From Hoeflea algicola (GTDB taxonomy: Bacteria; Pseudomonadota; Alphaproteobacteria; Rhizobiales; Rhizobiaceae), in the NCBI RefSeq assembly GCF_026619415.1, contig NZ_JAOVZR010000001.1, forward strand, positions 2,836,501-2,900,500: 64,000 nucleotides of DNA. The letters are read 5' to 3'. Positions within the stretch are counted from its first letter, which is position 1; every line of letters starts with the position of its first letter. Below the pieces are notes generated by a model. The model was not told the origin of the DNA, searched no databases, and saw nothing but the letters and a program-made list of their open reading frames with translations. A program made the translations under genes and the position numbers. Shown one piece after another: positions 21,108 to 51,749 of the stretch.

Positions 21108-21142
21108 TCCCCTACCCGACGAATGTTCTCAGATGGACACGC

Positions 21143-22733: not shown

Positions 22734-23975
22734 ATGACCATTTCCCCCTTCATTGTCCCGCAGGCCCGTCGCTCAAGCGTCGCCGTCGATGTCGGCGGTG
22801 TTATTGTTGGCGGTGGCGCCCCGGTGGTGGTGCAATCGATGACCAACACCGACACCGCCGATGTCGACGGCACTGTGGCTCAGGTCGCTGCCCTTCACCG
22901 TGCTGGCTCCGAAATCGTCCGCATCACCGTCGACCGCGACGAGAGCGCCGCAGCCGTACCGAAGATCCGGGAGCGGCTTGAGCGGCTCGGCCTCGACGTG
23001 CCGCTTGTCGGTGATTTTCACTACATCGGCCACAAGCTGCTGGCCGATCACCCGGCCTGCGCCGAAGCATTGGCCAAATACCGGATCAATCCGGGCAATG
23101 TCGGCTTCAAGGACAAGAAGGACCGGCAATTCGTCGAAATCGTCGAAATGGCGATCCGCTATGACAAGCCGGTGCGGATCGGCGTCAACTGGGGTTCACT
23201 CGATCAGGTGCTGCTGACCCGGCTGATGGACCAGAACCACGCCGAAGGATCACCGCTGAGCGCCCGCGACGTCACCCGCGAAGCGATCATCCAGTCGGCG
23301 CTGCTTTCAGCCAAACTCGCCGAGGAAACCGGTCTGGCCCGCAACCGCATTATCCTGTCAGCCAAGGTCAGCCAGGTGCAGGACCTGATCGCGGTCTACA
23401 CCGAACTGGCCCGCCGCTCTGACCATGCCCTGCATCTGGGTCTGACCGAGGCCGGCATGGGCTCGAAGGGCATCGTCGCTTCCTCCGCCGCCATGGGCAT
23501 CATCCTGCAGGCCGGCGTCGGCGATACGATCCGTGTGTCGCTGACCCCTGAACCGGGCGGCGACCGCACCCGCGAAGTTATCGTCGCCCAGGAATTGTTG
23601 CAGGTCATGGGCTTCCGGCAGTTCCTGCCGGTGGTCGCCGCCTGCCCCGGTTGCGGCCGCACCACATCGACCGTGTTTCAGGAACTCGCCCGCGCCATCG
23701 AGGATGATCTAAGGCGCAACATGCCGGTCTGGCGCGACAAGTATCCCGGCGTCGAAGGCCTGCAGGTCGCCGTCATGGGCTGCATCGTCAATGGCCCCGG
23801 TGAATCCAAACATGCCGATATCGGCATATCTCTGCCCGGAACCGGCGAAAGCCCGGCGGCCCCGGTTTTCATCGACGGCAAGAAGGCCGGAACGCTGCGG
23901 GGCCCGAAAATCGCCGAGGATTTCCAGGTCATGGTCGCCAATTACATCGAAAAGCGCTTCGGCCAAGGCGACTGA
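22734..23975 (+). CDS. ispG: 4-hydroxy-3-methylbut-2-enyl diphosphate synthase (GcpE)
   Basis: The 413-residue product is a full-length IspG. The N-terminal barrel shows [20 protein letters not shown] and the [13 protein letters not shown] region. The iron-sulphur cluster cysteines are seen in [15 protein letters not shown] and [19 protein letters not shown]. It catalyses the penultimate step of the MEP isoprenoid pathway, using a 4Fe-4S cluster. The ATG at 22734 fits the family start ([20 protein letters not shown]). The next isoprenoid gene, ispA, is 3 kb away on the other strand. It converges with the hybrid kinase gene. Confidence 0.97.
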
Positions 23976-24036
23976 ACCAGCCACGACCGGGGTCCGGGGT
24001 CCAACGCTGGCATCTCAAATCAGCCCGCGGCGCCTG

Positions 24037-26529
24037 TCAATGCGCCGCGCGATAGGCATTATCGGCATTCTCCAGGGCGCCGGGCAGCCAGCGCTCGATC
24101 ATCGCACCGAGCTTTTCCGGTGAAATAGGCTTGGAGAGATAATCGTCCATCCCGGCGGCCAGACACCGGTCCTCGTCACCCTTCAGCGAATGCGCGGTCA
24201 CCGCGATGATCGGCGTCGGTGACAGCCCTTCGCGGGCTTCGATCGCGCGGATCTCGGCGGTGGCTTCAAGGCCACTGAGTTCGGGCATCGACACATCCAT
24301 CAACACCAGGGTCGGACGCAGTTCCGCCCACAGGCGCACGGCTTCGCGCCCGTTGACCGCGAGCTTCTGGGCCAGGCCGAGCCCATCCAGCGATTGCTGG
24401 AAGACGATCTGATTGATGTGGTTGTCCTCGGCCACCAAAATCAGTGGTGCACTTCTCTGCGATGGTTCCGGCGCGACAATTGTCGTTGCTAAAACCGGTG
24501 CAGCCGGCGATGCGGTCGGCGCCTCGACCACCGTCGCTACATCCGCGCCAGCGCCGTCTCCGCCCGGCTGCGTCTGCCGCAGCGCTGCCTGTACCGTCTG
24601 CCGTAATTGTGCGGTACGCACCGGCTTGGTCAATTGCGCGAAAATGTCCAGATGGTTGAGCGATTCCAGCTGGTCTGCCTGATCGATCGACGAGAGCACC
24701 AGAATCGGTGTGTCGGCAATCAGCGGGTCGGCGCGGATCGCCCGCGCAACTTCCGCCCCCGACAGGACCGGCATCTGGAAATCAAGCACCACCAGATCAA
24801 TGCCGATGCCATGATTAGCCCGCGCATGCCGCAGCAGGTTGAGTCCGATCTCGCCGCTTTCCACTGCCACGCAGTCGTACCCCCAGTCACGCATCTGCTC
24901 GGTCAGGATCATGCGGTTGATGGAGTTGTCGTCTATCACCAGCACGCGCCGACCGGTAAGCTCGTCGGCCGTCGAAACCTTGGCGACACTGTCGCCACCA
25001 TGCACATCCATCTCCACCGTGAAGCTGAAGGTGGAGCCCTCGTCGGGCGTGCTTACGGCCGCCAGCTGTCCGCCCATCAGGTCGACCAGTCGCGTGGCAA
25101 TCGCCAGGCCAAGCCCGGTGCCCTCGTGCTTGCGGGTCGACGAGCCGTCAACCTGGCTGAACTTGTCGAAAATGGCCTCAATCTTGTCGGCGGGAATGCC
25201 GATCCCGGTATCACGCACAGCAACCGAGATAGCCAACCGCCGATCGCCGCCGGAGCTGTCGACTTCGGCCCAGTTGATCTCGACCATCACATGGCCTTTT
25301 TCGGTGAACTTGACCGCATTGCCAACCAGATTGGTCAGAATCTGGCGAAGCCGACCCGGGTCGCCGATCAACTGATCCGGCAGTCCCGGCGCAATCCGGA
25401 CCACCAATTCGATGTCCTTCTCGACCACCCTCGACGACATCAATGTCGCCACATCCTCGACCGTATCGACAAGGTTAAAAGATTTCGGGCACAAGACCAT
25501 CTGTCCGGCATCGATCTTGGAAAAATCCAGAATATCATTGATGATCTCGAGCAGCGCATTTCCGGACTTGAGGATCACGTCGGTAAAGGTGCGCTGCCGC
25601 GTATCAAGCTCGGTCCGTGTCAACAATTCGGCCATGCCGAGCACGCCGTTCATCGGTGTGCGTATTTCATGGCTCATGGTCGCCAGAAACTCGGATTTTG
25701 CCCGATCCGCAGCCTGCGCCTTTGTCAGCGCGGCATCGATCTCACGACGCTTTTCCTGCAGCCGATTGATCATCTTGTGGATCATGATGTCGATCGGCAG
25801 GAAAATGCCAAGCCCGACCACCATCAGAACCACCATGGTTGCCGTCAGGTAGTGCTGCAGCAACTTGCCCTGGGCTAGCGACAGGCCGGCGAGGTAATCG
25901 CGGAACTGTTCCTGCACATACAGATTCGACGGCTCGACCACGCCCTGATAGAGCGCGTCGGTTTCGCGCCCGGTCCAGTACATATCCTTTTTGGTCCGCG
26001 CCGCATCGAGACGTTTTGCCTCGAGCATCTGGGCATGATTGAGAAATGGATCGGAATTGGTCATGTACCGCGAGTTTGACTGGATTTTGTGGATCAGGCC
26101 CACAGGCGCTTCAGCCCAGGCGTCCTTCAGCGCCTTGAGCTTCCAACGAGTCCTTTCCAACCGGTAGCGCAAGCTCGAAACCGCCGAAATGATGTCGGGA
26201 TCCACCGCCAACGTATCGCGCACCTTATTTTTTTCGGCCAGTGTCAGATTGGAAAGCCTCGGATCGACAGAGTTTGCGTAATCGACATAGGTCTGCGCCA
26301 GCCGGTTGCTGCGATCGGCGATGGCCCGCATTCCATGATCGACTTCAGCAAAGGATTCCGACAGCGCGCCAATCTGCTGAATCTCTTCATTGTGAGCGAT
26401 CTGCTCGACAAAAAAGAAAATCCAGATGATCGCAATCGCCGATAGCGAAACAATATAGCCAATGCGCAAGGCAATGATGGTTCGGCGTGCTGTGGCTGTC
26501 TCAGCCTGATCGTCAAGTGTATCTGTCAT
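24037..26529 (-). CDS. Hybrid sensor histidine kinase with two C-terminal receivers
   Basis: The 830-residue product has a membrane helix at about 25-45 and an extracytoplasmic part to about 228 with no domain I recognise, mostly helical. A second helix lies at about 229-250. The HisKA domain has the phospho-His in FLATMSHEIRTPMNGVLGMAEL, then HATPase_c motifs (GNAVKFTEKGHV; DTGIGIP; STRKHEGTGLGLAIATRLV). Two receivers follow, with Asp in LDFQMPVLSGAE and in LMDVSMPELSGLE. There is no Hpt domain, so a separate one must complete a relay. It is a lone gene; its partner is not adjacent. The lone Hpt protein at 46364 is a possible partner by inference only. Confidence 0.93.
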   Translation of the reverse strand: MTDTLDDQAETATARRTIIALRIGYIVSLSAIAIIWIFFFVEQIAHNEEIQQIGALSESFAEVDHGMRAIADRSNRLAQTYVDYANSVDPRLSNLTLAEKNKVRDTLAVDPDIISAVSSLRYRLERTRWKLKALKDAWAEAPVGLIHKIQSNSRYMTNSDPFLNHAQMLEAKRLDAARTKKDMYWTGRETDALYQGVVEPSNLYVQEQFRDYLAGLSLAQGKLLQHYLTATMVVLMVVGLGIFLPIDIMIHKMINRLQEKRREIDAALTKAQAADRAKSEFLATMSHEIRTPMNGVLGMAELLTRTELDTRQRTFTDVILKSGNALLEIINDILDFSKIDAGQMVLCPKSFNLVDTVEDVATLMSSRVVEKDIELVVRIAPGLPDQLIGDPGRLRQILTNLVGNAVKFTEKGHVMVEINWAEVDSSGGDRRLAISVAVRDTGIGIPADKIEAIFDKFSQVDGSSTRKHEGTGLGLAIATRLVDLMGGQLAAVSTPDEGSTFSFTVEMDVHGGDSVAKVSTADELTGRRVLVIDDNSINRMILTEQMRDWGYDCVAVESGEIGLNLLRHARANHGIGIDLVVLDFQMPVLSGAEVARAIRADPLIADTPILVLSSIDQADQLESLNHLDIFAQLTKPVRTAQLRQTVQAALRQTQPGGDGAGADVATVVEAPTASPAAPVLATTIVAPEPSQRSAPLILVAEDNHINQIVFQQSLDGLGLAQKLAVNGREAVRLWAELRPTLVLMDVSMPELSGLEATAEIRAIEAREGLSPTPIIAVTAHSLKGDEDRCLAAGMDDYLSKPISPEKLGAMIERWLPGALENADNAYRAAH

Positions 26530-26760
26530 GGTCCGGCAACATCCATTTTGACGGATTTTGCCTTTAGTTGGTTAATAAACACGTATGGAGGGTAGGGGTG
26601 ACGGACGCGATTTTCATCGCCAATCACTACCGGCGTCCATGAGAATCCCGCGGCTACAAATGCAGGACCCGCTCAGACCAATTCATGGAACGATAAACGG
26701 ACATGCATTAAATCAAAGCCTTAATGCGATTTTTGTCTATTCGGGTGGCCGCGCGGCGAT

Positions 26761-27678
26761 TTAACGGTCGCGATTGGCTATGAAACCGGCAGCCTCGACC
26801 AGCGTCCCGGCCGCGGCGCCATAGGGCTGCATCAGCAGCGTCGCCTCTTCCACAAGCCCATCAAGCCGCTGTCGCGCCACATCCACCCCGTGCAGTGACA
26901 CCAGCGTCCCCTTGCCGCGGCCTGCGTCCTTCCCGGCCGCCTTGCCCAACGTCGCCGCATCCGAGGTCACGTCCAGCAGATCATCGGCCAGTTGAAACGC
27001 CAGACCGACAATCTCGCCAAACCGCGTCATCCGCGCCAGGCTTTCCGCGTCTGCTTGTGCGGCAATGGCACCGGCGGCACAGGCATAACGCAGCAAAGCG
27101 CCGGTCTTCATCGCCTGCAGCCGCACAATGCCGGCTTCGTCCGGCGCAACCCGCTCGGCCTGAAGATCAAGCGCTTGCCCGCCGACCATGCCGCCAACCC
27201 CCGCCGCTCGCGCCAACTGGTTGACCAGCGCCAGCCGGGTCGTGTCCGGCAGCGCGGTTTCGGGGGCCGAGAGAATGTCGAAGGCCAGCGTCAACAACCC
27301 GTCGCCGGCCAAGATCGCCGTCGCCTCGTCAAACGCGACATGCACCGTGGGTTGGCCGCGCCGCAAATCGTCGTCGTCCATCGCCGGCAAATCATCATGA
27401 ATCAGCGAATAGCAGTGGATACATTCAAGCGATGCGGCCACGCGCAAGGCAGCGTCTTCCGGCGCCCCCAGCAGGCGGGCGGTCTCCAGCACCAGGAACG
27501 GGCGAATCCGCTTGCCGCCGTTGAGAACACCATGGCGCATGGCGGAGATCAGGCGCTCCGGGCGGGCAATCTCACCCTTGAGCGGCGTTTCCCGCAACAT
27601 CAACTCCAGCAGGGCCGCCACCCGTGCTGCCGCGCCATCCAGCCGATTATTGAAACTGTCTTTGCCAACCTGATCCAT
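26761..27678 (-). CDS. ispA: Polyprenyl (farnesyl/geranylgeranyl) diphosphate synthase
   Basis: The 305-residue product has both Asp-rich motifs of short-chain isoprenyl diphosphate synthases: the first in [19 protein letters not shown], the second in [12 protein letters not shown], with GGKRIRPFL upstream. It condenses isopentenyl diphosphate with allylic primers, most likely to farnesyl or geranylgeranyl diphosphate; the chain length cannot be fixed by eye. The frame is open 114 bases upstream. I chose the ATG at 27678 because [13 protein letters not shown] leads straight into the family fold. It is divergent from mtgA. Confidence 0.93.
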
Positions 27679-27838
27679 GCCGGTCTCTTGCCATGCCGTC
27701 TTCTGTGCGGCAACGGTTTGTTTGTGCCTTCCTCGCCATAAAATCCGCGGTACGGCAGTCTGGTCTTGCGCCGTCAGGACCGCTAAAGACATCGGTCAAC
27801 AGCCGTCATTGACGCCGAAACGCGCGCAGGAACCCCAG

Positions 27839-28585
27839 TTGGCCAAGACAAGTCATTCCAAGACCGCAAAAAACGGCCGCAATGGCAGCGGCCCGCAGCG
27901 ACGTTCGCTTTTCAGGCGGCTAATCACATGGTTTGTGCTGATCATCGTACTGCTGGTGGGTCTGCCCTATCTGCTGATTCCGCTCTATGCCCTGCCGCAG
28001 ATCCATCCGGTTTCAACGCTGATGCTGGCGGAAAATGCCGCCGGCCGTTCTTATGAACGGCAATGGGTCTCCTTCGACGCCATCGCCCCGGTTCTGGTGC
28101 AATCGGTGATGATGTCGGAGGACGGGCAGTTCTGCACCCACTCCGGCGTCGACTGGAAGGCGCTCAATCTCGTCATTGACGACGCGCTTGACGGCGAAGC
28201 GACGCGTGGCGCCAGCACCATCCCGATGCAAACCGCCAAGAACCTGTTTCTGCCCTCCACCCGGTCGGTGCTGCGCAAGGCGCTGGAAATCCCGCTTGCG
28301 CTGTGGATCGATGTCGTCTGGTCGAAGCGGCGGTTGATGGAGATCTATCTCAACATCGCCGAATGGGCCCCCGGCGTTTATGGCATCGAAGCCGCTGCGC
28401 AAGCCTATTTTGGTGTTTCCGCAGCCAAGCTTTCAGCCCGGCAGGCGGCGCGGCTGGCCGTCACCCTGCCCAATCCGATCAAGCGCAACGCGGCCAACCC
28501 GTCGCGCAGCATGCAGAAGCTGGCCCGTGTTATCGAAGGCCGGGCCAAACAATCCGGCGCTTACATCAAATGTCTTTATGACTGA
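27839..28585 (+). CDS. mtgA: Monofunctional biosynthetic peptidoglycan transglycosylase
   Basis: The product of about 248 residues has a basic N-terminus, one membrane anchor ([19 protein letters not shown]) and a GT51 domain. Visible motifs are the catalytic Glu in [31 protein letters not shown] and [20 protein letters not shown]. It polymerises lipid II glycan in the periplasm. The start is uncertain. The only upstream ATG, at 27677, overlaps the ispA start codon on the other strand and would add 54 unlikely residues. A TTG at 27839, with AGGAA 6 bases ahead, gives the usual length of about 240-250, so I prefer it. rpmF follows within 1 kb, as in many rhizobia. Confidence 0.92.
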
Positions 28586-28702
28586 GTTAAGCCAAATTGG
28601 CTTTTCGCCGCCGATGCCCATGCGAACATCGCACTCTGTGACAGCGCCACGCATTCATAAAATACGAGGCGCTATCGAAACCACCATCGAAAGCGCTGAA
28701 CC

Positions 28703-29350
28703 ATGCCCGACCCTATCCTCTATATCGGCAACAAGAACTATTCCTCCTGGTCATTCCGACCCTGGATCGGCATGCGCATGGCGGGTATCGCCTTTGAGGA
28801 AAGGCTGGTGCCTTTCGACATGGGCAATGGCAACCCGGCGTTCGTGAAATTCTCCCCCACCGGCAAGGTCCCGGTTCTCATTGACGATGGCGTCACCATC
28901 TGGGAATCGCTGGCGATCCTCGATCACGTCTCCCGCGCAAACCCGGCCTCGGGCTTGTGGCCCGACGACAACGCCCGACGCAGCCGGGCAATGGCGGTCA
29001 GCCTGGAGATGATCTCCTCGTTTTCAGCGCTTCGCTCCGCTTGCCCGATGAACATGCGCAGACCCCGCGCTGCAATTGCCACGACCGCTGCCATCGACGC
29101 CGACGCGGCTCGCATCCAGTCGCTGTGGGATGAGTGCCTCGCCGAAACCGGCGGGCCGTTTCTGCTTGGCAATTTTTCCATTGCCGACGCCATGTATGCC
29201 CCTGTGGTCAATCGTCTCGATGTCTATGGCTTTGAGACCACTCAGGCTTCAGCCGGCTACATGGCGCGCATGAAGGCGCTCCCGGCGTGGCAGGAATGGG
29301 AAGCAGCTGGCCGCGCCGAACCGTGGATCGTCGAAGAAGACGAGGCCTGA
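28703..29350 (+). CDS. Glutathione S-transferase family protein
   Basis: The 215-residue product has a thioredoxin-like N-terminal domain (about 4-80). It includes the active-site loop NKNYSSWSFRPWIGMRMAG and FSPTGKVPVLIDDG, with the glutathione-binding WESLAILDHV. A helical C-terminal domain follows, including GGPFLLGNFSIADAMYAPVV. The Ser in YSSWS is the likely thiol-activating residue, as in zeta-like and bacterial GSTs. The true substrate is unknown. The start ATG has only a weak GAA-type site. It sits between mtgA and rpmF, all on the same strand. Confidence 0.9.
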   Translation: MPDPILYIGNKNYSSWSFRPWIGMRMAGIAFEERLVPFDMGNGNPAFVKFSPTGKVPVLIDDGVTIWESLAILDHVSRANPASGLWPDDNARRSRAMAVSLEMISSFSALRSACPMNMRRPRAAIATTAAIDADAARIQSLWDECLAETGGPFLLGNFSIADAMYAPVVNRLDVYGFETTQASAGYMARMKALPAWQEWEAAGRAEPWIVEEDEA

Positions 29351-29555
29351 CCGGCTCAGACGCCGATGATGCGCCATTGCGCAGTCGGGGGGGCTGGCCT
29401 ATGACACCGGACGGGCTCAAAAAAATGCGGCACGATGCTGGTCAAATCCGGAAATGCCATGTATAAGCCCGGCAAATTTCCGAAATCGGCATGTGTCAAT
29501 TTCGGCCCCTCGGGTCGTTCGTTGATCATGTCTGTATGTTGAACTGGAGTTCGTC

Positions 29556-41001: not shown

Positions 41002-42852
41002 TTAGGCCGAATTGCGCACGTGATCCGAACCGGTTGCCGGCGGGCTAACCTTGCCGTTGAACGACCGGAGCAATGTGGTGATGGTCTCGCCATCGACCGG
41101 GCGGGCATAGTGATAGCCCTGCGCCAGCGGACAGCCGATCTCCAGCAGACGGGCGGCCTGTTCGGCGGTTTCGATCCCTTCGGCGATTATGCCGATCTGC
41201 ATTTTGTGCGCCATGCTGATCAACGCCTCGACAATCGCGCTGCAGGCGGTATCGGTGAGCAAGCTGTCGACAAAGGATTTGTCGATCTTGATATAGTCGA
41301 GCGGGAAATCCCTGAGGTGGCTGAGCGAGGCGAAGCCGGTACCGAAATCGTCAAGCGCGATCTGCATGCCTTGCGCCCGCAGACGGGCAACCTGGCTGGC
41401 CACTTCTTGATCCATCAACACATTCTCGGTAACCTCAATCTGGAGAAAGCTCAGCGGAACATTATGGGCCTCGAACGGCGCCCGCAGGCGTTCCTCGAGA
41501 TTGCCGCGCTGGAAATCAACGGTCGAGAGGTTTACCGCCACGTGGCGGAGCTCCAGACCCTCGTCGATCCAGCAGCGCATGGCGCTGGCAATCTGCTCCA
41601 GCATGCAACCGGTCAGGCGAAACGCATTCTTGGAATCGGTCAGCCCCATGGCAAAGGCACCGGCGCTGACAACATTTCCCTCATCGGTGCGAATACGCGC
41701 CAGAGCCTCGACACCGACGATCTTGGCCCGGCGCATGCAGATGACCGGCTGAAAATGGGCAAAAACGCGGTTTTCATTCAGCGCCGAGTCCAACAGCGCA
41801 ATCTGCTCGGTTCGACACTGGATCGAGGTACGCAGGCCGGGGTGGAAATGTATATAGTCGCCTCTGGCCGTCTGCTTGGCATGGTAGAGCGCCAGGTCGG
41901 CATTCTGGCGCAGCAAGTCGGCGCTGGTGCCATCGCTGTTGCTGAGAACGCCACCAATGGTGATCTGCAACAGCATGGTATTGCCGTCGAATTCGTAGGG
42001 CTGCTCCATCTGGCTGAGCAAGCGTCCAGCCAATTCAGCCATGTTTTCGGCATCGTCACAATCGGAGCAAATAACCGCAAATTCGTCACCGCCAAGCCGA
42101 TATACATTGATGCCTGCGCCAACATTTGCAAGGCGCCGGGCAACTTCGCAGATCAACGCATCTCCAACCGAATGGCCCATGCGGTCATTGACCTGTTTGA
42201 GATTGTCGATATCGAGCAACAACAGGCCGAAACTCCGCGCCGGCAGAGACATGCTCTGGGCGATGATTTCATCAAAAGCATAGCGGTTGAAAAGGCCGGT
42301 CATCTGGTCGTGATAGGCCAGATGCTGCAGGCGGCGACTGACCTCGGCTCGCTCCATGGCGATGGAACACAGATGCACGCAGGTATCAACGAGTTGACGC
42401 TCCACGTCGCTCGGCCCGCGAGACTCACGATAGTAGAATGCAAAAGTTCCCACCACCCTACCCTCGCGCGATTTGATCGGGCTGGACCAGCAGGCCTTCA
42501 ACCCTAAAGGAAGGGCAAGATCCTGGTAATCCTTCCAGCGAAAGTCGGTGGCGATATCTGTAACTTCAACGGGGATGCCGAGAAAAGCGGCAGTGCCGCA
42601 GGACCCCACTTCTGGCCCGATCGGGTGTCCGTCGAGCGCTTCGCCATAGGATCGGGGCAGGCCGGGCCCGGCAACCGGATGGATAAAGCCACCCGCGTCA
42701 ATTGAAGCGATTGTGCAATTGGCGCCAGGGGCGAGCGCCTCGGCGCGTCGGCACAAGGTGTCCGCAACCTCGGTAAAAGGCACGCCTGTGGCCACAGCCT
42801 CAAGTATCTCGTTCTGCAGTGCCGACAATTCGGACTCGCGTCTGGCTTGCAT
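41002..42852 (-). CDS. GAF-GGDEF-EAL bifunctional cyclic di-GMP protein
   Basis: The 616-residue product has a GAF-type sensor (about 15-175; GSCGTAAFLGIPVEVTDIA), a GGDEF domain (about 190-345) and an EAL domain (about 365-600). The diguanylate cyclase motif RLGGDEF is intact. The phosphodiesterase residues look intact too: VGVEALARIR, VNLSTVDFQRG, EVTENVLMD, DDFGTGFASL and IIAEGIET. Either or both activities are therefore possible. It is soluble, with no membrane helix. The ATG at 42852 has GAAGGA ahead. It opens the signalling island but is transcribed away from the next gene, with 705 bases between. Confidence 0.94.
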   Translation of the reverse strand: MQARRESELSALQNEILEAVATGVPFTEVADTLCRRAEALAPGANCTIASIDAGGFIHPVAGPGLPRSYGEALDGHPIGPEVGSCGTAAFLGIPVEVTDIATDFRWKDYQDLALPLGLKACWSSPIKSREGRVVGTFAFYYRESRGPSDVERQLVDTCVHLCSIAMERAEVSRRLQHLAYHDQMTGLFNRYAFDEIIAQSMSLPARSFGLLLLDIDNLKQVNDRMGHSVGDALICEVARRLANVGAGINVYRLGGDEFAVICSDCDDAENMAELAGRLLSQMEQPYEFDGNTMLLQITIGGVLSNSDGTSADLLRQNADLALYHAKQTARGDYIHFHPGLRTSIQCRTEQIALLDSALNENRVFAHFQPVICMRRAKIVGVEALARIRTDEGNVVSAGAFAMGLTDSKNAFRLTGCMLEQIASAMRCWIDEGLELRHVAVNLSTVDFQRGNLEERLRAPFEAHNVPLSFLQIEVTENVLMDQEVASQVARLRAQGMQIALDDFGTGFASLSHLRDFPLDYIKIDKSFVDSLLTDTACSAIVEALISMAHKMQIGIIAEGIETAEQAARLLEIGCPLAQGYHYARPVDGETITTLLRSFNGKVSPPATGSDHVRNSA

Positions 42853-43557
42853 AGACTGTTCCTTCAGATGCAACCTCGCCACAACAACAGAAGCGAATGT
42901 CTATTTTCTTTACGCAAGCCCCAACGACACGTTTTAGGACCAATTTCGCTGAGAAGGCTTCGCGGTGGTTAACATTAGCTTGCCAAAACGGCTCAGGGGC
43001 AGGTTTGCGTTGCGCCTGATGAGGTGGCAATCGCAGCAAACAATAGCTCGAAGGCGCGTTATACTCTCGCACTCCACTGCCGATAACGAAGATGAAGCCA
43101 CCGACAATGCGCCGGCCATTTTCCGGGCAATCCCCTGACAAGTGGGAATGCCGCTCAATCGGCTTCGTTGCCTGCCACCAGCCACATACCAACGTCCCTC
43201 GCACACGGTGAATCAGAACGAGACTAATTCCGCAAGCAAATCAAACCGGCATCAAGCCAATCTTGCGTCATTCCCGTTTCGAAAAATAGTGCGTTACATT
43301 CGAGGTTGACAGCTTAATTGGTTATTAATCGAAATAAAATAAATTAACAAATTGTAAATATCCTATTTAATGCAAATTAGTCTGTTTGCATCAGAGAATT
43401 ACTATCTAATTGAGGGGAATATACAATGAAGCCCGCGACAAAAATGTAGGAACATTGATACATAGACGTTCCCTATCAGGAAGGACGTTGAAGAAGGGGC
43501 CTGATTTCGCACGAAATTTCCGACACATCACCGTCACCGCAACAAGAGAGATATGAA
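42853..43557. other. Long divergent intergenic region with AT-rich core and mini-ORF
   Basis: No full gene is seen in these 705 bases. The part at 43300-43400 is strikingly AT-rich for this genome, as expected of a strong or silenced promoter. At 43426-43449 a seven-codon frame (MKPATKM) follows GAGGGG by 8 bases, about 110 bases before the next gene. It could be a leader peptide or chance. Confidence 0.45.
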
Positions 43558-44916
43558 ATGCTGAACGTTGTATCTCTTGTTAGTGGATTAGAGCCCGACA
43601 CTTCCGTTCCGGTGGAAACCCTGTTCAGCAATGCATCGCGGCCTTCGGTGCATGTCATAGGTGGTGGCGAGTTTCTCGACTCTATAACCTCCATCCTGGG
43701 GCCGATGAGCTACATCCCCGCCCCAGTCGAAACCTCAACCCAGCTCACTGTAGCTCAAGAGGCAGGCACCGGCACAATCGTGGTAATCGACGGCGCGCTT
43801 CCCGGTGCGCTCGAGATTTGCCAGGCAATGGACGAACTCGTACCCAAGATACTGATTTCGCCGGAATCCTCATTTTCGTTTCGCGCCAAATGTGCCCAGG
43901 CGAATGTAACGACCGTGATGAGCGCCCCGATCGATCAGGCCGAATTCATCAACTGGCTGGAGCATTTTGGCGGCCAGATGAGCAGTCAGCCTGCGTCGAT
44001 CCTGTTGGTCGACGATGACCCGCTGGCGTCTGAAGTCTATGCCGAGATGCTGCGCGCCAATGGCATGACCGTTTCGGTTCTCAATGACCCATTCAACATC
44101 ATCATGACAATGGAGCGATCCTTTTTCGATCTCGTCATCATGGATCTTCAGATGCCCGGCACCAATGGCATCGAAATCGCCAAAATCATTCGCCAGCATC
44201 AAAACCACCTCTCGATCCCGATCGTGTTCTTGTCCTCCGAAGAAGACAAGCAGGTTCAGATGAAAGCGCGGCAATTCGGCGGAGATGATTTCATCTCGAA
44301 ACGGGCCGACCTAGATGCGCTGGTCTCGCTGATCCATCTGCGGGTGCAGCGGGCTCGTGTTCTGCGCAACCTGATAGAGCGCGATGGCTTGACCGGCTTG
44401 CTCAACCACCGCCGCTTCAAGGAACGTGTCGGCCATGAAATGGCGCGCTACCGCCGCACCAAACTGCAATTCTGCGTCGCCATGATCGATGTCGATCACT
44501 TCAAGAAAGTCAATGATACCTGGGGGCACCCGGTTGGCGACAAGGTCCTGTCTATCCTGGCGCGGGCGCTGGTCGGCTGGGTCCGCAAGACCGATGTGGT
44601 CGGCCGCTATGGCGGTGAGGAATTCGCGGTTCTGCTGCTCGACACGTCGCCGGACATGATCTTCGAGGTGATGGAAAATTTCCGCAAGCATTTTGCAAAG
44701 ATGACTTTTGACGGTCTCGGCGAACAGTTCTCGCTGACCGTCAGTATCGGCGTTGCCGGGTGCACTGCGGACGGCGACGGTGCGGCTCTCTTCGCCCAGG
44801 CCGACAAGGCACTTTACCTGGCCAAAAGCAATGGCCGCGATCAGGTTGTCATCGCCGAACCGGAGGCAACGCCCGCTTGCAGCAAGACTGCCTCTGCAGA
44901 TGCGGGCAAGACTTGA
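43558..44916 (+). CDS. Response regulator diguanylate cyclase (pseudoreceiver-receiver-GGDEF)
   Basis: The 452-residue product has a receiver at about 145-265 (ILLVDDDPLASEVYAEML; phospho-Asp in DLVIMDLQMPG; Lys in DFISKR) and a GGDEF domain to about 430. The active site YGGEEF is intact, and RKTD stands five residues before it as a product-inhibition I-site. Residues about 30-140 look like a second receiver fold lacking the acidic pocket (VVIDGALPGALEI, VMSAPID). PleD has two receivers before GGDEF, but there the degenerate one is second. Phosphorylation should raise cyclic di-GMP. The ATG follows AAGAGAG. The PilZ-protein gene follows 88 bases later. Confidence 0.92.
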   Translation: MLNVVSLVSGLEPDTSVPVETLFSNASRPSVHVIGGGEFLDSITSILGPMSYIPAPVETSTQLTVAQEAGTGTIVVIDGALPGALEICQAMDELVPKILISPESSFSFRAKCAQANVTTVMSAPIDQAEFINWLEHFGGQMSSQPASILLVDDDPLASEVYAEMLRANGMTVSVLNDPFNIIMTMERSFFDLVIMDLQMPGTNGIEIAKIIRQHQNHLSIPIVFLSSEEDKQVQMKARQFGGDDFISKRADLDALVSLIHLRVQRARVLRNLIERDGLTGLLNHRRFKERVGHEMARYRRTKLQFCVAMIDVDHFKKVNDTWGHPVGDKVLSILARALVGWVRKTDVVGRYGGEEFAVLLLDTSPDMIFEVMENFRKHFAKMTFDGLGEQFSLTVSIGVAGCTADGDGAALFAQADKALYLAKSNGRDQVVIAEPEATPACSKTASADAGKT

Positions 44917-45004
44917 TGGAGATCCGGACACCCACCGCTCTTCGTGTGTCCCGTGACGCTGTTTGCCTTCCGGCTTCTTTGCTCCAAACGATTGGACCAG
45001 ACAA

Positions 45005-46264
45005 ATGAATGTGACCTACGACAAAGCCGCCGAAAGTTCGGACATAACGCTCAATGGCCGCTCGGTCTGCATTGTCGATGATGACCATCTGTACCGGGGC
45101 CATCTTGCTGCGCTGCTCGGACAGGCACATATCAGGACGATGGAAGCCGGTGACAGCTTCACCCTGGTCCAGGTTCTGGAAAAGGAGATGCCCGACTGCA
45201 TTCTTCTCGACTACAACCTCGATGCAGAGAACGGTTTCCGGCTGCACGAACAACTCAAGCTCCGCTTCCCCCACCTTGCACCGGTGGTCATGCTGTCGGC
45301 CGATGAATCCCAGCGCACAGCAATCAAGGCTTTCCGCATGGGGTTTTATGATTTCCTGCCGAAGCGGAACCTGCGGCTTGAGGAAATTACCGCCATCATT
45401 CAGAAAACCATCATCCGCCACGACAGCGAAACCGCGCGCTATGATGAGGTTTCAGCACTGCGTAAAAACGCGTTGTTCGATGATCTCACAGGCATGTATT
45501 GCCGCGACGAACTGGACACCAAACTGGCCCATGTTGCGAAATCGGCGGCCAAATTGCGGACGAAATTCGCGATCTTTTCGATTTGCCTGGCCGACTACCA
45601 GACAATCGGCACCAATTACGGCATTGCCAATGCCGACGAAATTCTTCGCAGCTTTGCCGGCAAGATCCGGACAACCATCAGAGCAGATGATTTCTGCGGC
45701 CGTTTCGACGAAGACAGCTTCCGTTATGTCATGGACCGGAATGTTTCCGACGCCAGTATCATCGAGTGTCAGAGACGCCTCACCGAAAAACTGACATTCT
45801 CCCATCATCTCAAATCAGTAGAACTGCAAATCGTGCCCTTGATCAGGGTTTCGGTCTCCAGTGATCATGGCGATCTCGCGCAAATGATGCAGTCGCTGGC
45901 TGAACAGCAGCAGCAGCAGCTGGACGCGTTGCGGGCCGAAAGCGACCCCAATGGCTGGAGCGCCCTGCCTGACGGTTCCTTGCCAGCCAGTGCGGGCGTT
46001 GCCGAAGTCAAGGAACGGCGGAAGTCGGTTCGCATGCGGACCCTGAAACCTGCCTTCATCGCGGTTGAAGAATGGTCGTCAAAGATCAATTGCACCGTTC
46101 GCAATATTTCCGATGGCGGCGCGCGTATCCGGTTGGAGCAGCCCCTGGCATTGCCGGAGTATTTTCTGCTCAAGATCACCCGCTCCGGGCCTCTCAGACG
46201 GGTCCGCAAATGCTGGCACATCAATGATGAAATCGGCGTCGAATTCTGTGATGAAGCAAGTTAG
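45005..46264 (+). CDS. Receiver - degenerate GGDEF - PilZ protein
   Basis: The 419-residue product starts with a receiver (about 18-135; CIVDDDHLYRG, phospho-Asp in ILLDYNLDAENG, Lys in LPKRN). A GGDEF-like domain follows at about 155-300, in which the active-site loop is replaced by GRFDEDSF, so cyclase activity is unlikely. The C-terminal PilZ domain (about 335-415) has the cyclic di-GMP binding motifs ERRKSVRMR and NISDGGARI. It looks like an output that reads both phosphorylation and cyclic di-GMP. A Gln run sits in the linker. The start is uncertain: the ATG at 45005 has a weak site, and the frame opens at 44963. Confidence 0.88.
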   Translation: MNVTYDKAAESSDITLNGRSVCIVDDDHLYRGHLAALLGQAHIRTMEAGDSFTLVQVLEKEMPDCILLDYNLDAENGFRLHEQLKLRFPHLAPVVMLSADESQRTAIKAFRMGFYDFLPKRNLRLEEITAIIQKTIIRHDSETARYDEVSALRKNALFDDLTGMYCRDELDTKLAHVAKSAAKLRTKFAIFSICLADYQTIGTNYGIANADEILRSFAGKIRTTIRADDFCGRFDEDSFRYVMDRNVSDASIIECQRRLTEKLTFSHHLKSVELQIVPLIRVSVSSDHGDLAQMMQSLAEQQQQQLDALRAESDPNGWSALPDGSLPASAGVAEVKERRKSVRMRTLKPAFIAVEEWSSKINCTVRNISDGGARIRLEQPLALPEYFLLKITRSGPLRRVRKCWHINDEIGVEFCDEAS

Positions 46265-46363
46265 AGCGGCTTCAGTCCCAGCCGCGTCCGCCAGGAGGCT
46301 CGGCAATAACGACGGTTGGCGGACCTGATGTCCGCTGATTTCAAGAACAGGGAATACCAACCA

Positions 46364-46711
46364 ATGGTCAGCCATTCACAGGGCATCAACAAATTCGATC
46401 AGCTGCCGGATGAGGCACAGAACCGGATTGCACAGTTGCGCCTCCTCTTTGTGGCACGGTGTCAGGAAAATCTGGTGCAGATCAAGCAGGTGCTGGACCA
46501 ACGGGCTGAGGCAAACGGGCCGTCGACGCGGGATTCCGAGCTCATCAAACTGGCCCACTCACTGGCGGGCGCATCGGCAATATTCGGATATCAGGAACTG
46601 GGCCGCGCTGCATCCATGGTTGAATCAACGCTGCGCGAAGACAGTTATATCGAGGCTGAGTCCGCCCTGGTTATCGATGTATTGATCGACCAGCTCACAG
46701 CGCTCGGCTGA
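46364..46711 (+). CDS. Single-domain histidine phosphotransfer (Hpt) protein
   Basis: The product of about 115 residues is all helical, with the Hpt phospho-His in LIKLAHSLAGASAIFGYQEL. This is the usual HxLxGxxxxxG-like pattern with the following conserved Gly. It would shuttle phosphate between a hybrid kinase receiver and a downstream response regulator. The ATG at 46364 with AGGGAA ahead is preferred; an ATG at 46328 would add 12 residues. It lies 99 bases behind the PilZ gene on the same strand and probably in the same operon. Confidence 0.85.
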   Translation: MVSHSQGINKFDQLPDEAQNRIAQLRLLFVARCQENLVQIKQVLDQRAEANGPSTRDSELIKLAHSLAGASAIFGYQELGRAASMVESTLREDSYIEAESALVIDVLIDQLTALG

Positions 46712-46875
46712 AGCAGTCATGGCCCGGCTGGTCAAGTGGCCATGAAGTTGACTGTCGGCTGGCTAAGTCACCGGTGGCAATGCATGTCGGGTTGAACATC
46801 CATGAATGAGCGACCCTGTTGCAGCGTGCGCCCTGCTGGGTATCGCTAGATTGAATGCGGGGCTTGCGCCCTGCT

Positions 46876-47262
46876 TCAGCCTTTGACCCGTGTAAAAAGC
46901 TCCCTTGCCTGCGTGGCCAGGGTCATCGGATCAAACGGTTTGGAAATTACACCCTCAGCACCCAATCCCAAGAAACACTCGATGTCTTCCGGCCGGGTTC
47001 TCGCCGTTATGAAGATCACCGGAACGGATCCGTGAACCTCGTCCTGTTTGAGACGGGCCAGGGTTTCCGGGCCATCCATCCCCGGCATCATCACGTCAAG
47101 CAGGATCAGGTCCGGCAGCCACTCCTGAACGATGGCCAGCGCCGCTGAACCCGACGCGGCGGTTCTCAGTTCAATATCGGGATCAAGCTCAAGCGACATT
47201 CCGGCAATTTCGCGGATATCATCTTCGTCATCCACGTACAGTATTTTCAAGGGTTCAGTCAT
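46876..47262 (-). CDS. Single-domain response regulator (CheY-like)
   Basis: The 128-residue product is one receiver domain with all key residues: acidic pair in ILYVDDEDDIRE, phospho-Asp in LILLDVMMPGMDG, Thr in FITARTR and Lys in VISKPFD. It has no output domain, so it acts by protein contact or as a phosphate sink or relay element. The gene lies 134 bases downstream of the giant hybrid kinase on the same strand and converges with the Hpt gene. Confidence 0.93.
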   Translation of the reverse strand: MTEPLKILYVDDEDDIREIAGMSLELDPDIELRTAASGSAALAIVQEWLPDLILLDVMMPGMDGPETLARLKQDEVHGSVPVIFITARTRPEDIECFLGLGAEGVISKPFDPMTLATQARELFTRVKG

Positions 47263-47396
47263 GGGTACTTTCGTGCTCAGGCGCATAGCGGTTTGATATA
47301 AAGGCTTGGCATAGATGCCGAGTTCGATGGCCAGGTGCGCCCGATGGTCCGGGCCGATATTCTGACACCTATCGTCGTAACGGGCGTTGGCAAGCT

Positions 47397-50300
47397 TTAC
47401 CTCACCACAAGGCTTTGTATTTTTTTGACGATCTTCGCCTCCGAGGCGCGTGACTTCACCATCACCGAGGCGACCGAACGCTTGACGTCGTCGGACACTT
47501 CCGAGGCTGACAGGATCATCACAGGAACCGGCAGTTCAACGAGCTTGGCCAAGGTGTCGAGAAACTCGAGCCCCGAGCCGTCCGGCAAACCAATATCAAG
47601 GACAATCAGGTCGAAGTGCTTGGAGTGCAACAAGGCTTCCGCGCTTTTCAAGGTCGTGGCTGTGACGACGGTGGCAGTGCCGTGCAGATATGTCGCCAAC
47701 ACCCGGCTCAGATCCTCGTCATCCTCGATATGGAGCAGGGTCGGGACATCCCGCTGACGGTAGTGCAGCAACGCGCGTTGACGATCCTCCGGCTCGATCG
47801 CCTCCGGCGCAACATCCTTTATAGGCAACGGGAAATCGACCCAGAAAGTGGTGCCGCGGCCGGTTTCGGTCTCGAAGCCGATGGTCCCACCCATTCTCTC
47901 GACAATCTGTTTGCTGATGTGCAAGCCAAGGCCGCTGCCGCCCTTTACCCGTGTGGTGGAGGAATCGCTTTGCAGGAATTTTCCAAAAATCTGCGGACGG
48001 AAATCTGCGGGAATTCCTTCGCCATAATCCTTGACTACAACCCGGACCTGATCACCGTTCCTGTGAGCAGAAACCTCCACCTGGTCACCCTTGTTGGAGA
48101 ACTTGCAGGCATTGGAAAGAAGATTTGCCATCACCTGCGCGAACCGTTCCGGATCCACATTGATTGGCAGTTGCGGATCTGTCCCGACGCCTTTGATGGT
48201 CACTTCAAGCTTTTCCGCATAGGGCTGATTGACCTCAACCGCCTGCTTGAGCAGCAGACCCACTTCTTCCAGTTTCATCTCAAAGCGCATCTGTCCCGAT
48301 GCGATCTTGTCGATATCGAGAATGTCATTGATCAGCAGCGTCAAGCGCTCGCAGTTCTTGTGCGCGATATCAATCAGGCGGATGGCCTTGTCCGGCAATT
48401 CCTTTGACATCGCCCCCATGACCAAGCCAAGCGCGCCGCGGATCGATGTCAACGGGGTCCGCAATTCGTGGCTGACGATGGATATGAAGTCTGACTTCAG
48501 ACGTTCGATTTCCCGTCGCTTGGTCAGATCCATGATGACGCCCAGATACCCCGTGGTTTGATGGGCATCATTGCGCAAGGCGGTTCCGGTCATGAGAACA
48601 GGAATCCGCGAACCATCCCGATGAATGAAGGTCCATTCGTTTTCATCAATGCCGTTGGCGTCGACATTCCGGGTGAAGGTCTCGAACCCCGGGCTGACGA
48701 AAGCGCCTAGCTCGGTGGTGAGAACAAGCGCTCTCTCCTCGATTTCCGTTTGATCGTGCCACAATGCCGGCGTTTGCTTGCCAACGATTTCTTCGGCCGA
48801 ATAACCCAGTGCCGTTTCAGCCGCCTCGTTGAAGACCATCACCTTGCCTTCAAGATCCGTGGCGATGATCATGTATTCCGTACTGGCCATGACGGCCGAT
48901 TTGAGTGCGTTGGACTCGCTCAGCGCCCGGGCTGCAGCAACAGCTTCACTGGTATCCCGCAACGTGCTGACCAGCATCCGCTTGCCATCGAGATGCATCT
49001 CGTTGACGGAGAGATCCATGGGGAAGATTGCCCCGTTGTTGCGCCGTGCGGACACTTGCTGCCCGCTGCCGATAGCCAGTCCCTCACCGGTCTTCAGGTA
49101 ATGACTGATGTAATCATCGTCAGGCGGCAACAGCATACTGACGTGCTTGCCGACCACTTCACCCCGCGCATAGCCAAAGATACGCAGGCCGGCCGGGTTG
49201 ATCGATTCAATCATGCCCTCCGGACCAATGGTCAGAACACCATCCAACACAGTGTTCATCACCGTCAGATTCCGGGTTGATTCCTGCTTGATGCGTTCGC
49301 TGGACTGTTCCAGATCAGCAGTCTTGAGCCGTGACAGAAGCGTCATATGTGCCGTGATGGCCGTGAGGATCGAAATCAGCAGGCCGGCGATCAACGCCAC
49401 GTCAGGCAGCAAGGTTTGTTGCGATTTGAGGAACCCCGTTGTCGGAATGATCTGGATCGACCAAAGCTTGTCAGGGATTTGTATCGTGCTTTCAAGTAAC
49501 CAGGGCAAGGCGACAGGCTGCGTCAAATTGCCGAACTCAAGTTGCGGATCGCCGTCATAGGCGATCAGAAACTGGTAGCGGCCCAATGTTTCAGGCAGAA
49601 TCTCGCTGCTGAAAAACTCACGCACCGAGAATACTGCGGCAAGATATCCGTCGGAAATGCCTTTCCTGTTAATCGGGAAATAGGCAATGAAAGCCTGGTC
49701 TTTTCTGGCTAACTTGATCGGAGGGCTGATTTTGGGAATGTCCTGCAGAACCGCCATCTGCGCCAGATCGGCTTGGGGGCCCTGTTGTATGGCATCAACC
49801 CAGACCAACCGATGGTTTTGTGTCGATTGCTGCGTATTCAGCATTTGGCCTTTTGCATTGACCCACGCAACGGCTCTGAGGCCTGCAAGGTCGTCAATGT
49901 AATTGCGCGCATCCACTTGCCACGGATGCCCAGGGCGATCCGGATCGGTTTCCATCCGCGAGGTCATGCGTTTCAAGGCCAATAGCTTGCCTTCGGTTTC
50001 CGCATTGATGAGCAAATCGATCTTGCTGATTTCGCTGGAGATCATGGCCTTGAGATGGGCCACTTCCTTGTCATTGAGAGCGCGATACAGCGACACCGAC
50101 CCCACCGCCAAAACGGCGAATACGAAGGCGGGCAACAATAGCGCCTTGCTGCCATAGATCCTCTCAGCAGGTCCGGTAAGGCGAGCGCTGGTGACGAACA
50201 AAAACAAGCCGGACAGGAAGGTGATCAACAGGCCGCCGGACAGGATCAGAATCGGGTTGTTGCTGTGCCAGTTTTCTTCGAAACCGAGCGTGCTTTCCCA

Positions 50301-51749
50301 CACGATCAGCCATTTCTGCTGCATGATATCAATGTGTTCACGCTTGGAGAATGCTGGCTCATGGCCGTCCGTGCGGGCCTTGTTGCTTTCGTAAATCAGG
50401 GTACCAGCAATTTCCCGGCCATCATCATAGACCCGCAAACTGACGGTGCTTCCCTGACTTTTAGTCAGATCGCGCATGAAATTCTTGGCGATAAACGGCG
50501 CATAGATCCAACCGTCGAACAGAGCCCATTTTTCAACGGACGATCCGGGTTGAAACCCATCCCGATACATCGGGTACAACAGCAGGAAGCCGGGTGTTTT
50601 CTCCTCGTCCTGGACCAGGATGATACGTTTGGTGATGGCCGGCTTTCCGGTCATCTTGGACAGATCGGCGGCCTGCTTCCTGTTTTCTTCAAAGGCGATA
50701 TTCAGCCCCACCGCCTGTCGGTTGGTAGCTTCAGGCTCGATATAGGTAATGACGTAACGGGCATCTCCAGGCACGTCGGGATGTATCGCAAAATTCCTGG
50801 CGCCATCGGCCTGGGTCGTCCGCACGAATTGATCAGCCCCGCTCGGCGCCAGCGATGCGATCCACCCCAGGCCACTGATGCCGGGAAAATTGCTTTCGAT
50901 ATCCAGCACATCGACATAGCGATGCCACTCATGGCGATTGATGGAATGCGATCCCTGGAAATAGGCAACCCCACCCAGAAGCGCATTCTCATAGGAATTT
51001 ATCCGACTCAGAAGCGCCTTCTTGCTCTCCAGCGCCATTGCTTCAAACTGGATCCTGCCATTGTCGTGGGCTGCCTCCGACGAGATCTTCCACGCGTAAA
51101 ACGTCAGGCCCAGCGGAATCAGAAGCAGCAGCATGGCGGTGACCTGCAGATTGCCCAGTGGCTTGCCGCGCCAGGAAAGTCTTGGCGAGCCTCCGGGGGC
51201 TATCAGCACCAACGGAAGGAAAACGATGACGCCGAAAATGCCCCCTGTCCACCATGTCACCCAACTGTCCAGCAGCTTATCAACCGGTGTGGCTGCAGAG
51301 AAATACAAGGCCGCAACGCCTATTGTGGGAGCCACCAGACAAACGATCGGACCGACAGCGAAGAACAGGACCAACACATCGCGAATATTGTTGAGGCCCA
51401 CAGGAAGGCCGAGCAACCGCCTTACCAGCGCATACCCCGCCAAAGCCTGAACACTGGACCCTGTCGCGATTGCCAGGGCAGTCAGCGCTTTTGCCTGGTC
51501 CAGACCGGACTCACCCGAGTACGCGCCCGATATGTAGTTGCCGAGGATGAGCGAACCAAGAAAGATGCCGGGCCAGAGGCGCCAGCCATAAAGAACCAAT
51601 GCGCCAAGCGCGATTCCGGAAGGAGGCCAGATGAGGGTGGCATAGCCAGGCGGGACTGCCAGTGACAAGCCAAGTTGCCCCGAGCAAAAGTAGATACCGG
51701 CAATCAGAAGCGTCTTTACCAGAAATACGAAATTTCGATTTTGCAACAT
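47397..51749 (-). CDS. Large hybrid histidine kinase (MASE1-CHASE-second sensor-PAS-PAS-HisKA-REC)
   Basis: The 1450-residue product begins with a MASE1 membrane domain (about 8-225; YATLIWPPSGIALGALVLYG). A CHASE extracytoplasmic domain follows at about 235-440 (SYENALLGGVAYFQGS). After two more membrane helices (about 505-560) a second extracytoplasmic domain spans about 565-790 and ends at another helix. Two PAS domains (about 840-1090), HisKA (FISIVSHELRTPLTSIRGAL), HATPase_c (NLLSNACKFSNKGD; GSGLGLHISKQI) and a C-terminal receiver (VLDIGLPDGSGLE) follow. A hybrid kinase without its own Hpt needs a partner such as the lone Hpt encoded nearby. CHASE domains sense small ligands, in some cases cytokinin-like molecules or peptides; the ligand here is unknown. 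Confidence 0.93.
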   Translation of the reverse strand: MLQNRNFVFLVKTLLIAGIYFCSGQLGLSLAVPPGYATLIWPPSGIALGALVLYGWRLWPGIFLGSLILGNYISGAYSGESGLDQAKALTALAIATGSSVQALAGYALVRRLLGLPVGLNNIRDVLVLFFAVGPIVCLVAPTIGVAALYFSAATPVDKLLDSWVTWWTGGIFGVIVFLPLVLIAPGGSPRLSWRGKPLGNLQVTAMLLLLIPLGLTFYAWKISSEAAHDNGRIQFEAMALESKKALLSRINSYENALLGGVAYFQGSHSINRHEWHRYVDVLDIESNFPGISGLGWIASLAPSGADQFVRTTQADGARNFAIHPDVPGDARYVITYIEPEATNRQAVGLNIAFEENRKQAADLSKMTGKPAITKRIILVQDEEKTPGFLLLYPMYRDGFQPGSSVEKWALFDGWIYAPFIAKNFMRDLTKSQGSTVSLRVYDDGREIAGTLIYESNKARTDGHEPAFSKREHIDIMQQKWLIVWESTLGFEENWHSNNPILILSGGLLITFLSGLFLFVTSARLTGPAERIYGSKALLLPAFVFAVLAVGSVSLYRALNDKEVAHLKAMISSEISKIDLLINAETEGKLLALKRMTSRMETDPDRPGHPWQVDARNYIDDLAGLRAVAWVNAKGQMLNTQQSTQNHRLVWVDAIQQGPQADLAQMAVLQDIPKISPPIKLARKDQAFIAYFPINRKGISDGYLAAVFSVREFFSSEILPETLGRYQFLIAYDGDPQLEFGNLTQPVALPWLLESTIQIPDKLWSIQIIPTTGFLKSQQTLLPDVALIAGLLISILTAITAHMTLLSRLKTADLEQSSERIKQESTRNLTVMNTVLDGVLTIGPEGMIESINPAGLRIFGYARGEVVGKHVSMLLPPDDDYISHYLKTGEGLAIGSGQQVSARRNNGAIFPMDLSVNEMHLDGKRMLVSTLRDTSEAVAAARALSESNALKSAVMASTEYMIIATDLEGKVMVFNEAAETALGYSAEEIVGKQTPALWHDQTEIEERALVLTTELGAFVSPGFETFTRNVDANGIDENEWTFIHRDGSRIPVLMTGTALRNDAHQTTGYLGVIMDLTKRREIERLKSDFISIVSHELRTPLTSIRGALGLVMGAMSKELPDKAIRLIDIAHKNCERLTLLINDILDIDKIASGQMRFEMKLEEVGLLLKQAVEVNQPYAEKLEVTIKGVGTDPQLPINVDPERFAQVMANLLSNACKFSNKGDQVEVSAHRNGDQVRVVVKDYGEGIPADFRPQIFGKFLQSDSSTTRVKGGSGLGLHISKQIVERMGGTIGFETETGRGTTFWVDFPLPIKDVAPEAIEPEDRQRALLHYRQRDVPTLLHIEDDEDLSRVLATYLHGTATVVTATTLKSAEALLHSKHFDLIVLDIGLPDGSGLEFLDTLAKLVELPVPVMILSASEVSDDVKRSVASVMVKSRASEAKIVKKIQSLVVR

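Follow-up and report, generated by a model that had tools for sequence, protein, structure and literature searches.

Do six neighbouring signalling genes of Hoeflea algicola form one circuit, in which a single histidine phosphotransfer (Hpt) protein serves both the synthesis and the readout of the messenger cyclic di-GMP (c-di-GMP)? The question is raised by a DNA stretch of 64,000 nucleotides (the window; positions 2836501–2900500 of the main contig of the genome labelled G000 in our counts). An initial annotation, made from the letters alone, had described these genes as an island with a branched relay. All six open reading frames (ORFs) are present where it placed them, and the domains it named score above the Pfam cut-offs. 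The conserved unit, however, is five genes, not six. We put at roughly 60% the probability that these five constitute a self-contained phosphorelay cassette, occurring at different chromosomal places, that would couple one membrane sensor to c-di-GMP synthesis and readout. The genes are as follows (REC, receiver domain).

43558–44916, + strand: PleD-like diguanylate cyclase with a putative N-terminal pseudo-receiver, a REC domain (D196, K248), GGEEF and the I-site RKTD (Pfam, Foldseek, motifs).
44963–46264, likely start 45005, + strand: candidate c-di-GMP receptor with REC (D69, K120), degenerate GGDEF (DEDSF, I-site RADD) and PilZ (RKSVR, NISDGG) domains (Pfam, alignment of 11 homologues, motif table).
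46316–46711, likely start 46364, + strand: lone Hpt protein, His 81 of the long ORF, motif LAHSLAGASAIFG (Pfam 35.7 bits, cut-off 24.6).
46876–47286, likely start 47262, − strand: lone receiver, a proposed phosphoryl intermediate or competitor (Pfam).
47397–51749, − strand: hybrid histidine kinase of 1450 residues with MASE1, CHASE, two PAS, HisKA (H1094), HATPase and C-terminal REC (D1385) domains (Pfam).
41002–42882, − strand: GAF-GGDEF-EAL protein (Pfam), a divergent neighbour outside the conserved cassette.

Linkage of the five genes

The cyclase, receptor and Hpt genes form one rightward group, separated by 88 and 99 bp. A leftward group that converges on the Hpt side is made up of the genes for the kinase and the lone receiver, which lie 134 bp apart on the same strand. 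Promoter and terminator scans gave signal at shuffle level only. Full or near full-length orthologues of the kinase are found in 6 of 18 Hoeflea genomes (G000, G002, G003, G009, G010 and G011), the five other than that of the window at 59–82% identity. The Hpt, lone receiver and cyclase genes lie beside the kinase gene in all six, the receptor gene in five. In G010 the receptor gene has been deleted: about its first 120 bases are left (L056:8251-8377; ∼ 71% identity to G002, 90 of 127 columns), and the Hpt gene follows. G010 is thus a natural reader-less version of the cassette.

The surroundings differ from genome to genome. When 3–8 kb per side were compared (frames of at least 100 residues), the five relatives shared flank genes only between G003 and G011 and between G002 and G010, on one side each, and no flank gene of the window had a counterpart of > 45% identity beside the cassette in any of them. 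Because flank genes are shared only within these two pairs, and none with the window, the cassette stands in four contexts, and we infer that it moves as a mobile unit. Pfam matches were obtained for 7 of ten flank proteins of four relatives (aminotransferase, amidohydrolase, altronate/galactarate dehydratase, outer membrane efflux protein, EAL protein, aldehyde dehydrogenase and TetR regulator); these do not support a common metabolic or polysaccharide target next to the cassette.

The sixth gene does not follow the other five. Four genomes encode orthologues of the GAF-GGDEF-EAL protein (78–84% identity). The gene lies ∼ 1.2 Mb from the cassette in G003 and G011 and on a different contig in G002, while G014 carries the gene but no cassette; beside the cassette the gene occurs in none of the five relatives. 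Since the copies in G011 and G014 (not those in G003 and G002) keep neighbours known from 26.8–34.0 kb of the window, the gene seems to be part of an older chromosome background. It could still be argued that the enzyme belongs to the island and supplies degradation, given that it is the divergent neighbour of the cyclase in the window and that some EAL protein takes the same divergent position in G002, G511, G435 and G476. The EAL neighbour in G002 is, however, a different protein, 25% identical to that of G476 in the EAL part only, and the window protein has no receiver domain by Pfam. With the four close orthologues located elsewhere, this makes membership of the sixth gene very improbable, and we rejected the six-gene island. 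The initial annotation had named scattered homologues as a result that would count against a unit of six adjacent genes: five of the genes are linked beyond chance in Hoeflea, and the homologues of the GAF-GGDEF-EAL gene are scattered.

The five-gene set is also found beyond the genus. In an order-level sample (397 genomes of a larger group), searched with the receptor alignment, matches at E ≤ 1e-25 came from six genomes of four genera in two other families, besides the window's own. Counting these with the five Hoeflea genomes, the cyclase gene is adjacent to the receptor gene or one small gene off in 11 of 11 (a contig end cuts the cyclase gene of G728), the kinase and lone receiver genes are near it in ten (exception G498), and so is the Hpt gene (exception G728, whose 6.6-kb contig holds the cut cyclase end, the receptor, the kinase and the lone receiver). 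G462 has all five genes; those for receptor, Hpt, cyclase and kinase share one strand, and no gap between them exceeds 14 bp. Gene order differs between families, and overlaps of 4–20 bp (kinase/lone receiver, cyclase/receptor, receptor/Hpt, cyclase/kinase and REC-EAL/Hpt) tie parts of the cassette together in four other genera; starts outside Hoeflea are the first in frame or were set by eye, and overlaps of a few bases may shift.

Three genomes of one other family (G511, G435 and G476) combine receptor, cyclase, hybrid kinase, lone receiver and Hpt with a gene for a REC-EAL protein that runs into the Hpt gene (L122:5988-7588, L123:12546-14197 and L124:13009-14734). A 562-residue ORF of G435 (L123:12509-14197) was considered as an EAL-Hpt fusion and rejected, the EAL domain being in another frame and the two genes merely overlapping. 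The G476 REC-EAL protein, used as query against the 18 Hoeflea genomes, gave 21 matches (E ≤ 1e-20) in 11 of them, all confined to the EAL part.

A receptor search of a class sample at E 1e-30 matched 29 of 385 genomes. Apart from the window's, all 28 match the REC-GGDEF part only, and they were left out of the receptor counts. Among plasmids, the receptor search returned 163 records, none covering 80% of the receptor, and the Hpt search four weak ones. Two plasmid loci are related to the cassette. On Roseibium aggregatum plasmid NZ_CP128603.1 (L102), positions 16627–29355 (∼ 13 kb) hold a MASE1-CHASE hybrid kinase, a lone receiver, two Hpt genes, a REC-GGDEF cyclase, a REC-TackOD1 protein, a glycosyltransferase and an HlyD-like protein, contents suggesting an exopolysaccharide output. 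Pseudosulfitobacter pseudonitzschiae plasmid CP070879.2 (L103) has a CHASE kinase, a kinase and a lone receiver, followed by convergent genes for an Hpt and two REC proteins. These two (L103:14887-17099; 323 and 324 residues) have ∼ 200 residues of unrecognised C-terminal sequence and no Pfam output domain at E 0.01.

Signalling residues and domain architecture

A HisKA-HATPase-REC kinase, an Hpt protein with its acceptor His and regulators with acceptor Asp, the parts of a multistep phosphorelay, are all present by Pfam and by residues. The phospho-acceptors are kept in every aligned sequence, in the receivers of the kinase, lone regulator, cyclase and receptor as well as in HisKA and Hpt. 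The key residues of the kinase, own receiver included, are kept in 6 of 6 Hoeflea orthologues, D64, T94 and K116 of the lone receiver in 13 of 13 homologues, and the acceptor His of the Hpt in 11 of 11. Pfam finds no Hpt domain in the kinase, which bears out the initial annotation. A second extracytoplasmic region of the kinase gives a CHASE match under the threshold (E 0.0028; 17.9 bits, cut-off 25). The G009 orthologue is without MASE1. The sensor part is exchangeable: the G462 kinase matches both MASE1 and CHASE, whereas that of G511 matches neither and carries PAS repeats.

Hpt domains typically carry a Lys three residues past the acceptor His (H-x-L-K-G). This Lys is absent from 11 of 11 Hpt homologues, which have A, V or S instead (window 46550–46588), and the Pfam score is still above the cut-off. 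The genome of the window has two Hpt matches over the cut-off, the cassette protein and a 783-residue frame that also matches the kinase ATPase domain (CheA-like); the initial remark that the Hpt has no other obvious partner nearby is a fair one. One further match falls below the cut-off (21.4 bits): a 138-residue frame (L037, G000:C1:1225291-1225473) beside a small, by eye ferredoxin-like gene, a possible third phosphotransfer protein of the genome. The same genome has 51 receiver and 37 kinase ATPase matches above the cut-offs and, counted by eye, about ten hybrid kinases. One of the hybrid kinases lies in the window at 24037–26529 and has two receiver domains (matches at 2860597 and 2861092), and none of the genome's Hpt matches lies inside it.

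The cyclase begins with an extra region of ∼ 140 residues whose best Pfam match reaches only E 0.16. It was modelled as an alternating beta-alpha, receiver-like fold (block pLDDT mostly 70–89; 57.7 as the mean of the whole model). The position of the acceptor is occupied by Asp, but both the acidic pair and the Lys are missing. The second receiver keeps DDD, D196, S226 and K248, and the GGDEF domain GGEEF and an RxxD I-site, in 6 of 6 Hoeflea cyclases. Foldseek gave PleD as the best match across the chain, with a TM-score of 0.31 on a low-confidence model; by sequence, the best solved relatives are REC-GGDEF chains of the WspR and DgcR types, with PleD below them. In PleD the first receiver is the phospho-acceptor and the second an adaptor, whereas here the first of the two lacks the acidic pair. 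Since the second receiver, not the first, carries the acceptor residues, the protein is PleD-like, not a PleD orthologue.

The receptor had been described as a receiver-PilZ protein. Both domains are there, but a degenerate GGDEF domain between them had been missed, which Pfam recognises at 62.5 bits (cut-off 23.8). All 11 receptors keep the acidic triad of the receiver, D69 and K120, and all 11 have lost the GGDEF motif (DEDSF in the window); the I-site RxxD, which stands five residues ahead of the dead motif in the window protein, is kept in nine. In the PilZ domain, RxxxR is kept in 11 of 11 and (D/N)xSxxG in ten, with S for N in L033. The loss of the catalytic motif and retention of the I-site in the window receptor are as in PopA-type proteins. 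The best solved relative of the REC-GGDEF part is PleD, and an AlphaFold model of the receptor was poor (mean pLDDT 42). Judged by these motifs, the protein is a candidate c-di-GMP binder, via PilZ and probably the I-site, and probably makes none of the messenger itself.

Proposed relay and alternative routes

The conserved residues and the linkage lead us to propose the following relay. A signal at the extracytoplasmic part of the kinase would cause autophosphorylation at H1094 and transfer to the kinase's own receiver (D1385). The phosphoryl group would then pass to the lone Hpt (His 81) and from there to the receivers of the cyclase (D196) and the receptor (D69). The phosphorylated cyclase would dimerise and be switched on, with product inhibition through its I-site. 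The receptor would make no c-di-GMP but would bind the messenger through PilZ and probably the I-site; because it is a response regulator it could sense phosphate and messenger, and its output would need, or be tuned by, phosphorylation together with c-di-GMP. Phosphate may also move between the lone receiver and this kinase and Hpt, the lone receiver serving either as a second port of entry or as a sink. In genomes of family f200, the REC-EAL phosphodiesterase would join the relay and add degradation. One Hpt common to cyclase and receptor is the most economical reading. The initial proposal that one Hpt charges a cyclase and a c-di-GMP reader at once fits the linkage of the five genes, their intact phospho-acceptors and the gene overlaps, and fails for the GAF-GGDEF-EAL gene.

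Where the lone receiver stands in this scheme is the point at which a different route suggests itself. It had been counted as one more output, but its homologues adjoin lone Hpt genes in distant genomes, which suggests a possible intermediate. With the Hpt as query, 55 of the 385 genomes in the class sample gave a match, the window's genome among them, and most of these matches were weak; we compared eight distant lone-Hpt neighbourhoods of the class. In five of them (G318, G273, G062, G391 and G200; loci L094, L095, L097, L100 and L101) a lone receiver of the cassette family (104–157 bits to the profile) adjoins or overlaps the Hpt gene, and in three of these (G318, G273 and G062) a kinase stands beside the pair. 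Pfam finds no receiver domain in the G318 kinase, and the profile finds none in the G062 kinase frame; the G273 frame has a receiver-like match at its start. As for the remaining three neighbourhoods, G173 has a less similar receiver ∼ 300 bp away, G049 only a hybrid-type kinase and G164 neither. The five neighbourhoods, with the receiver-less G318 kinase, therefore suggest that the lone-receiver family can stand between kinase and Hpt, and the five pairs may represent an older kinase-receiver-Hpt core.

By this serial route, phosphate would run from the kinase to the lone receiver, then to the Hpt and on to cyclase and receptor, and the C-terminal receiver of the kinase would be regulatory. 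The Spo0 relay has the same order of kinase, receiver, phosphotransferase and response regulator. The route is further favoured by the overlap of the kinase and lone receiver frames in G511, G435 and G476, by the REC-less kinase that precedes the lone receiver in Pseudosulfitobacter, and by the Caulobacter single-domain regulator MrrA, which is described as passing phosphate to PhyK acting as phosphotransferase (PMC5964349). Yet the kinase's own receiver is intact in every one of the six Hoeflea orthologues and would be a sufficient first acceptor, and G498 has an Hpt and outputs with no lone receiver nearby. We consider the serial route a genuine possibility, with the odds somewhat against it. 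Another alternative is two uncoupled systems: the kinase would signal only through its C-terminal receiver and the lone one (or via ChpT), while other hybrid kinases would serve the operon of Hpt, cyclase and receptor. The halves are indeed convergent groups in Hoeflea, the genome has about ten hybrid kinases and few Hpts, the Hpt half of G498 has no kinase half nearby, and use of one Hpt by many kinases is known, e.g. HptB with four kinases in Pseudomonas aeruginosa (PMC6335343). But the halves are linked in all six Hoeflea genomes and across four contexts, and in G462 kinase, Hpt and both outputs lie on one strand within gaps of at most 14 bp, so that uncoupling seems unlikely to us.

Several observations weigh against the relay through one shared Hpt that we prefer. 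The receptor is not indispensable, since G010 keeps the remaining set without it, and the I-site is lost in both receptors of family f6 (L126 and L127). G498 has receptor, Hpt and cyclase but no kinase or lone receiver adjacent; there is only a kinase H-box match ∼ 9 kb off, right where the 19.9-kb stretch ends. Among the class matches listed, none but the window's ran past position 345 of the 419 of the receptor, so none covers PilZ, and because these matches stop before that domain the five-part set is narrow in its distribution. In the Roseibium and Pseudosulfitobacter loci, outputs of other kinds accompany the kinase, lone receiver and Hpt types, which suggests a wider class of kinase-receiver-Hpt cores whose outputs are exchangeable. 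The ∼ 10 hybrid kinases of the genome could share this Hpt, making cross-talk possible. Both structure models, of cyclase and receptor, are poor, and for these proteins we found no assay of phosphotransfer, cyclase activity or binding.

The shared-Hpt relay can be taken one step further. We speculate that the cassette is a mobile write-and-read module (in f200 also an erasing one), in which one Hpt charges the cyclase, the receptor and the f200 phosphodiesterase at once, and in which the receptor is a coincidence gate, firing only when it is phosphorylated and has also bound c-di-GMP whose synthesis was set off by the same signal. We offer this extension tentatively and would not bet on it at even odds. 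If true, it would mean a local c-di-GMP circuit insulated from the global pool by wiring, not by localisation alone.

Relation to known systems

Every part of the cassette is of a known type. For the combination, a linked Hpt, REC-GGDEF and PilZ set, searches of open-licence papers found no description in titles or abstracts, consistent with the initial impression that this is not a described system. How the messages of one c-di-GMP circuit are kept apart from those of the cell's other cyclases and phosphodiesterases has yet to be settled. A compact cassette whose maker, reader and (in relatives) eraser would draw on a single phosphate donor, and whose parts stay together at different chromosomal places, would make a ready test object: it has five genes and clear phospho-sites, and in G010 there is a natural genome from which only the reader has been lost.

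Hpt domains linked to EAL proteins are mentioned in a survey that covers the c-di-GMP genes of five alphaproteobacterial orders and that names neither PilZ nor Hoeflea in its main text (PMC9756655). The Caulobacter hub MrrA is a single-domain receiver that shuttles phosphate between kinases and the PhyK phosphotransferase; it controls the general stress response, and the account cited does not describe a cassette that joins it to a cyclase and a PilZ protein (PMC5964349). In Pseudomonas aeruginosa, RetS, PA1611, SagS and ErcS' act through HptB on HsbR. This known relay through a lone Hpt is covered in a review on biofilm and two-component systems (PMC6335343). As proposed for the cassette, hybrid kinases there feed a lone Hpt and a response regulator. 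The flow from many kinases to one output is, however, the reverse of one kinase to several, and the passage on this relay names no HptB-charged cyclase or PilZ receiver.

Among alphaproteobacterial systems, DivK and PleD are under shared kinases in Agrobacterium (PMC7003649), and PopA is a degenerate REC-GGDEF receptor with a c-di-GMP-binding RxxD I-site (PMC12564702). The cassette resembles the Caulobacter PleC/DivJ – DivK/PleD pathway in its PleD-like cyclase and PopA in its degenerate REC-GGDEF receptor with RxxD. To our knowledge, there is no Hpt between kinase and PleD and no PilZ domain in PopA. The Caulobacter HmrA-HmrB/HmrX(-HmrC) system, a hybrid kinase with two putative lone Hpt proteins, shifts the choice between motile and sessile life, probably via c-di-GMP (PMC11481889). 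It likewise ties an alphaproteobacterial hybrid kinase and putative lone Hpt proteins to c-di-GMP; unlike the cassette it acts via DgcB and is given as present only in Caulobacteraceae, and the passages on it name no receiver outputs in its cluster (PMC11481889).

The Shewanella oneidensis system, in which HnoK/HnoS branch to HnoB, HnoC and HnoD (PMC6335343, PMC8846402), differs from the cassette in that its enzyme is a phosphodiesterase, with no cyclase and no PilZ reader; it is gammaproteobacterial, and the passages on it there mention no Hpt. Pfam finds none of its output types (REC-EAL enzyme, degenerate HD-GYP regulator, transcription factor) among the five window genes. What the Hno system, as described there, has in common with the proposed relay is its plan: the input of a sensor kinase branches to several regulators, among them one c-di-GMP enzyme and one catalytically dead relative of such an enzyme.

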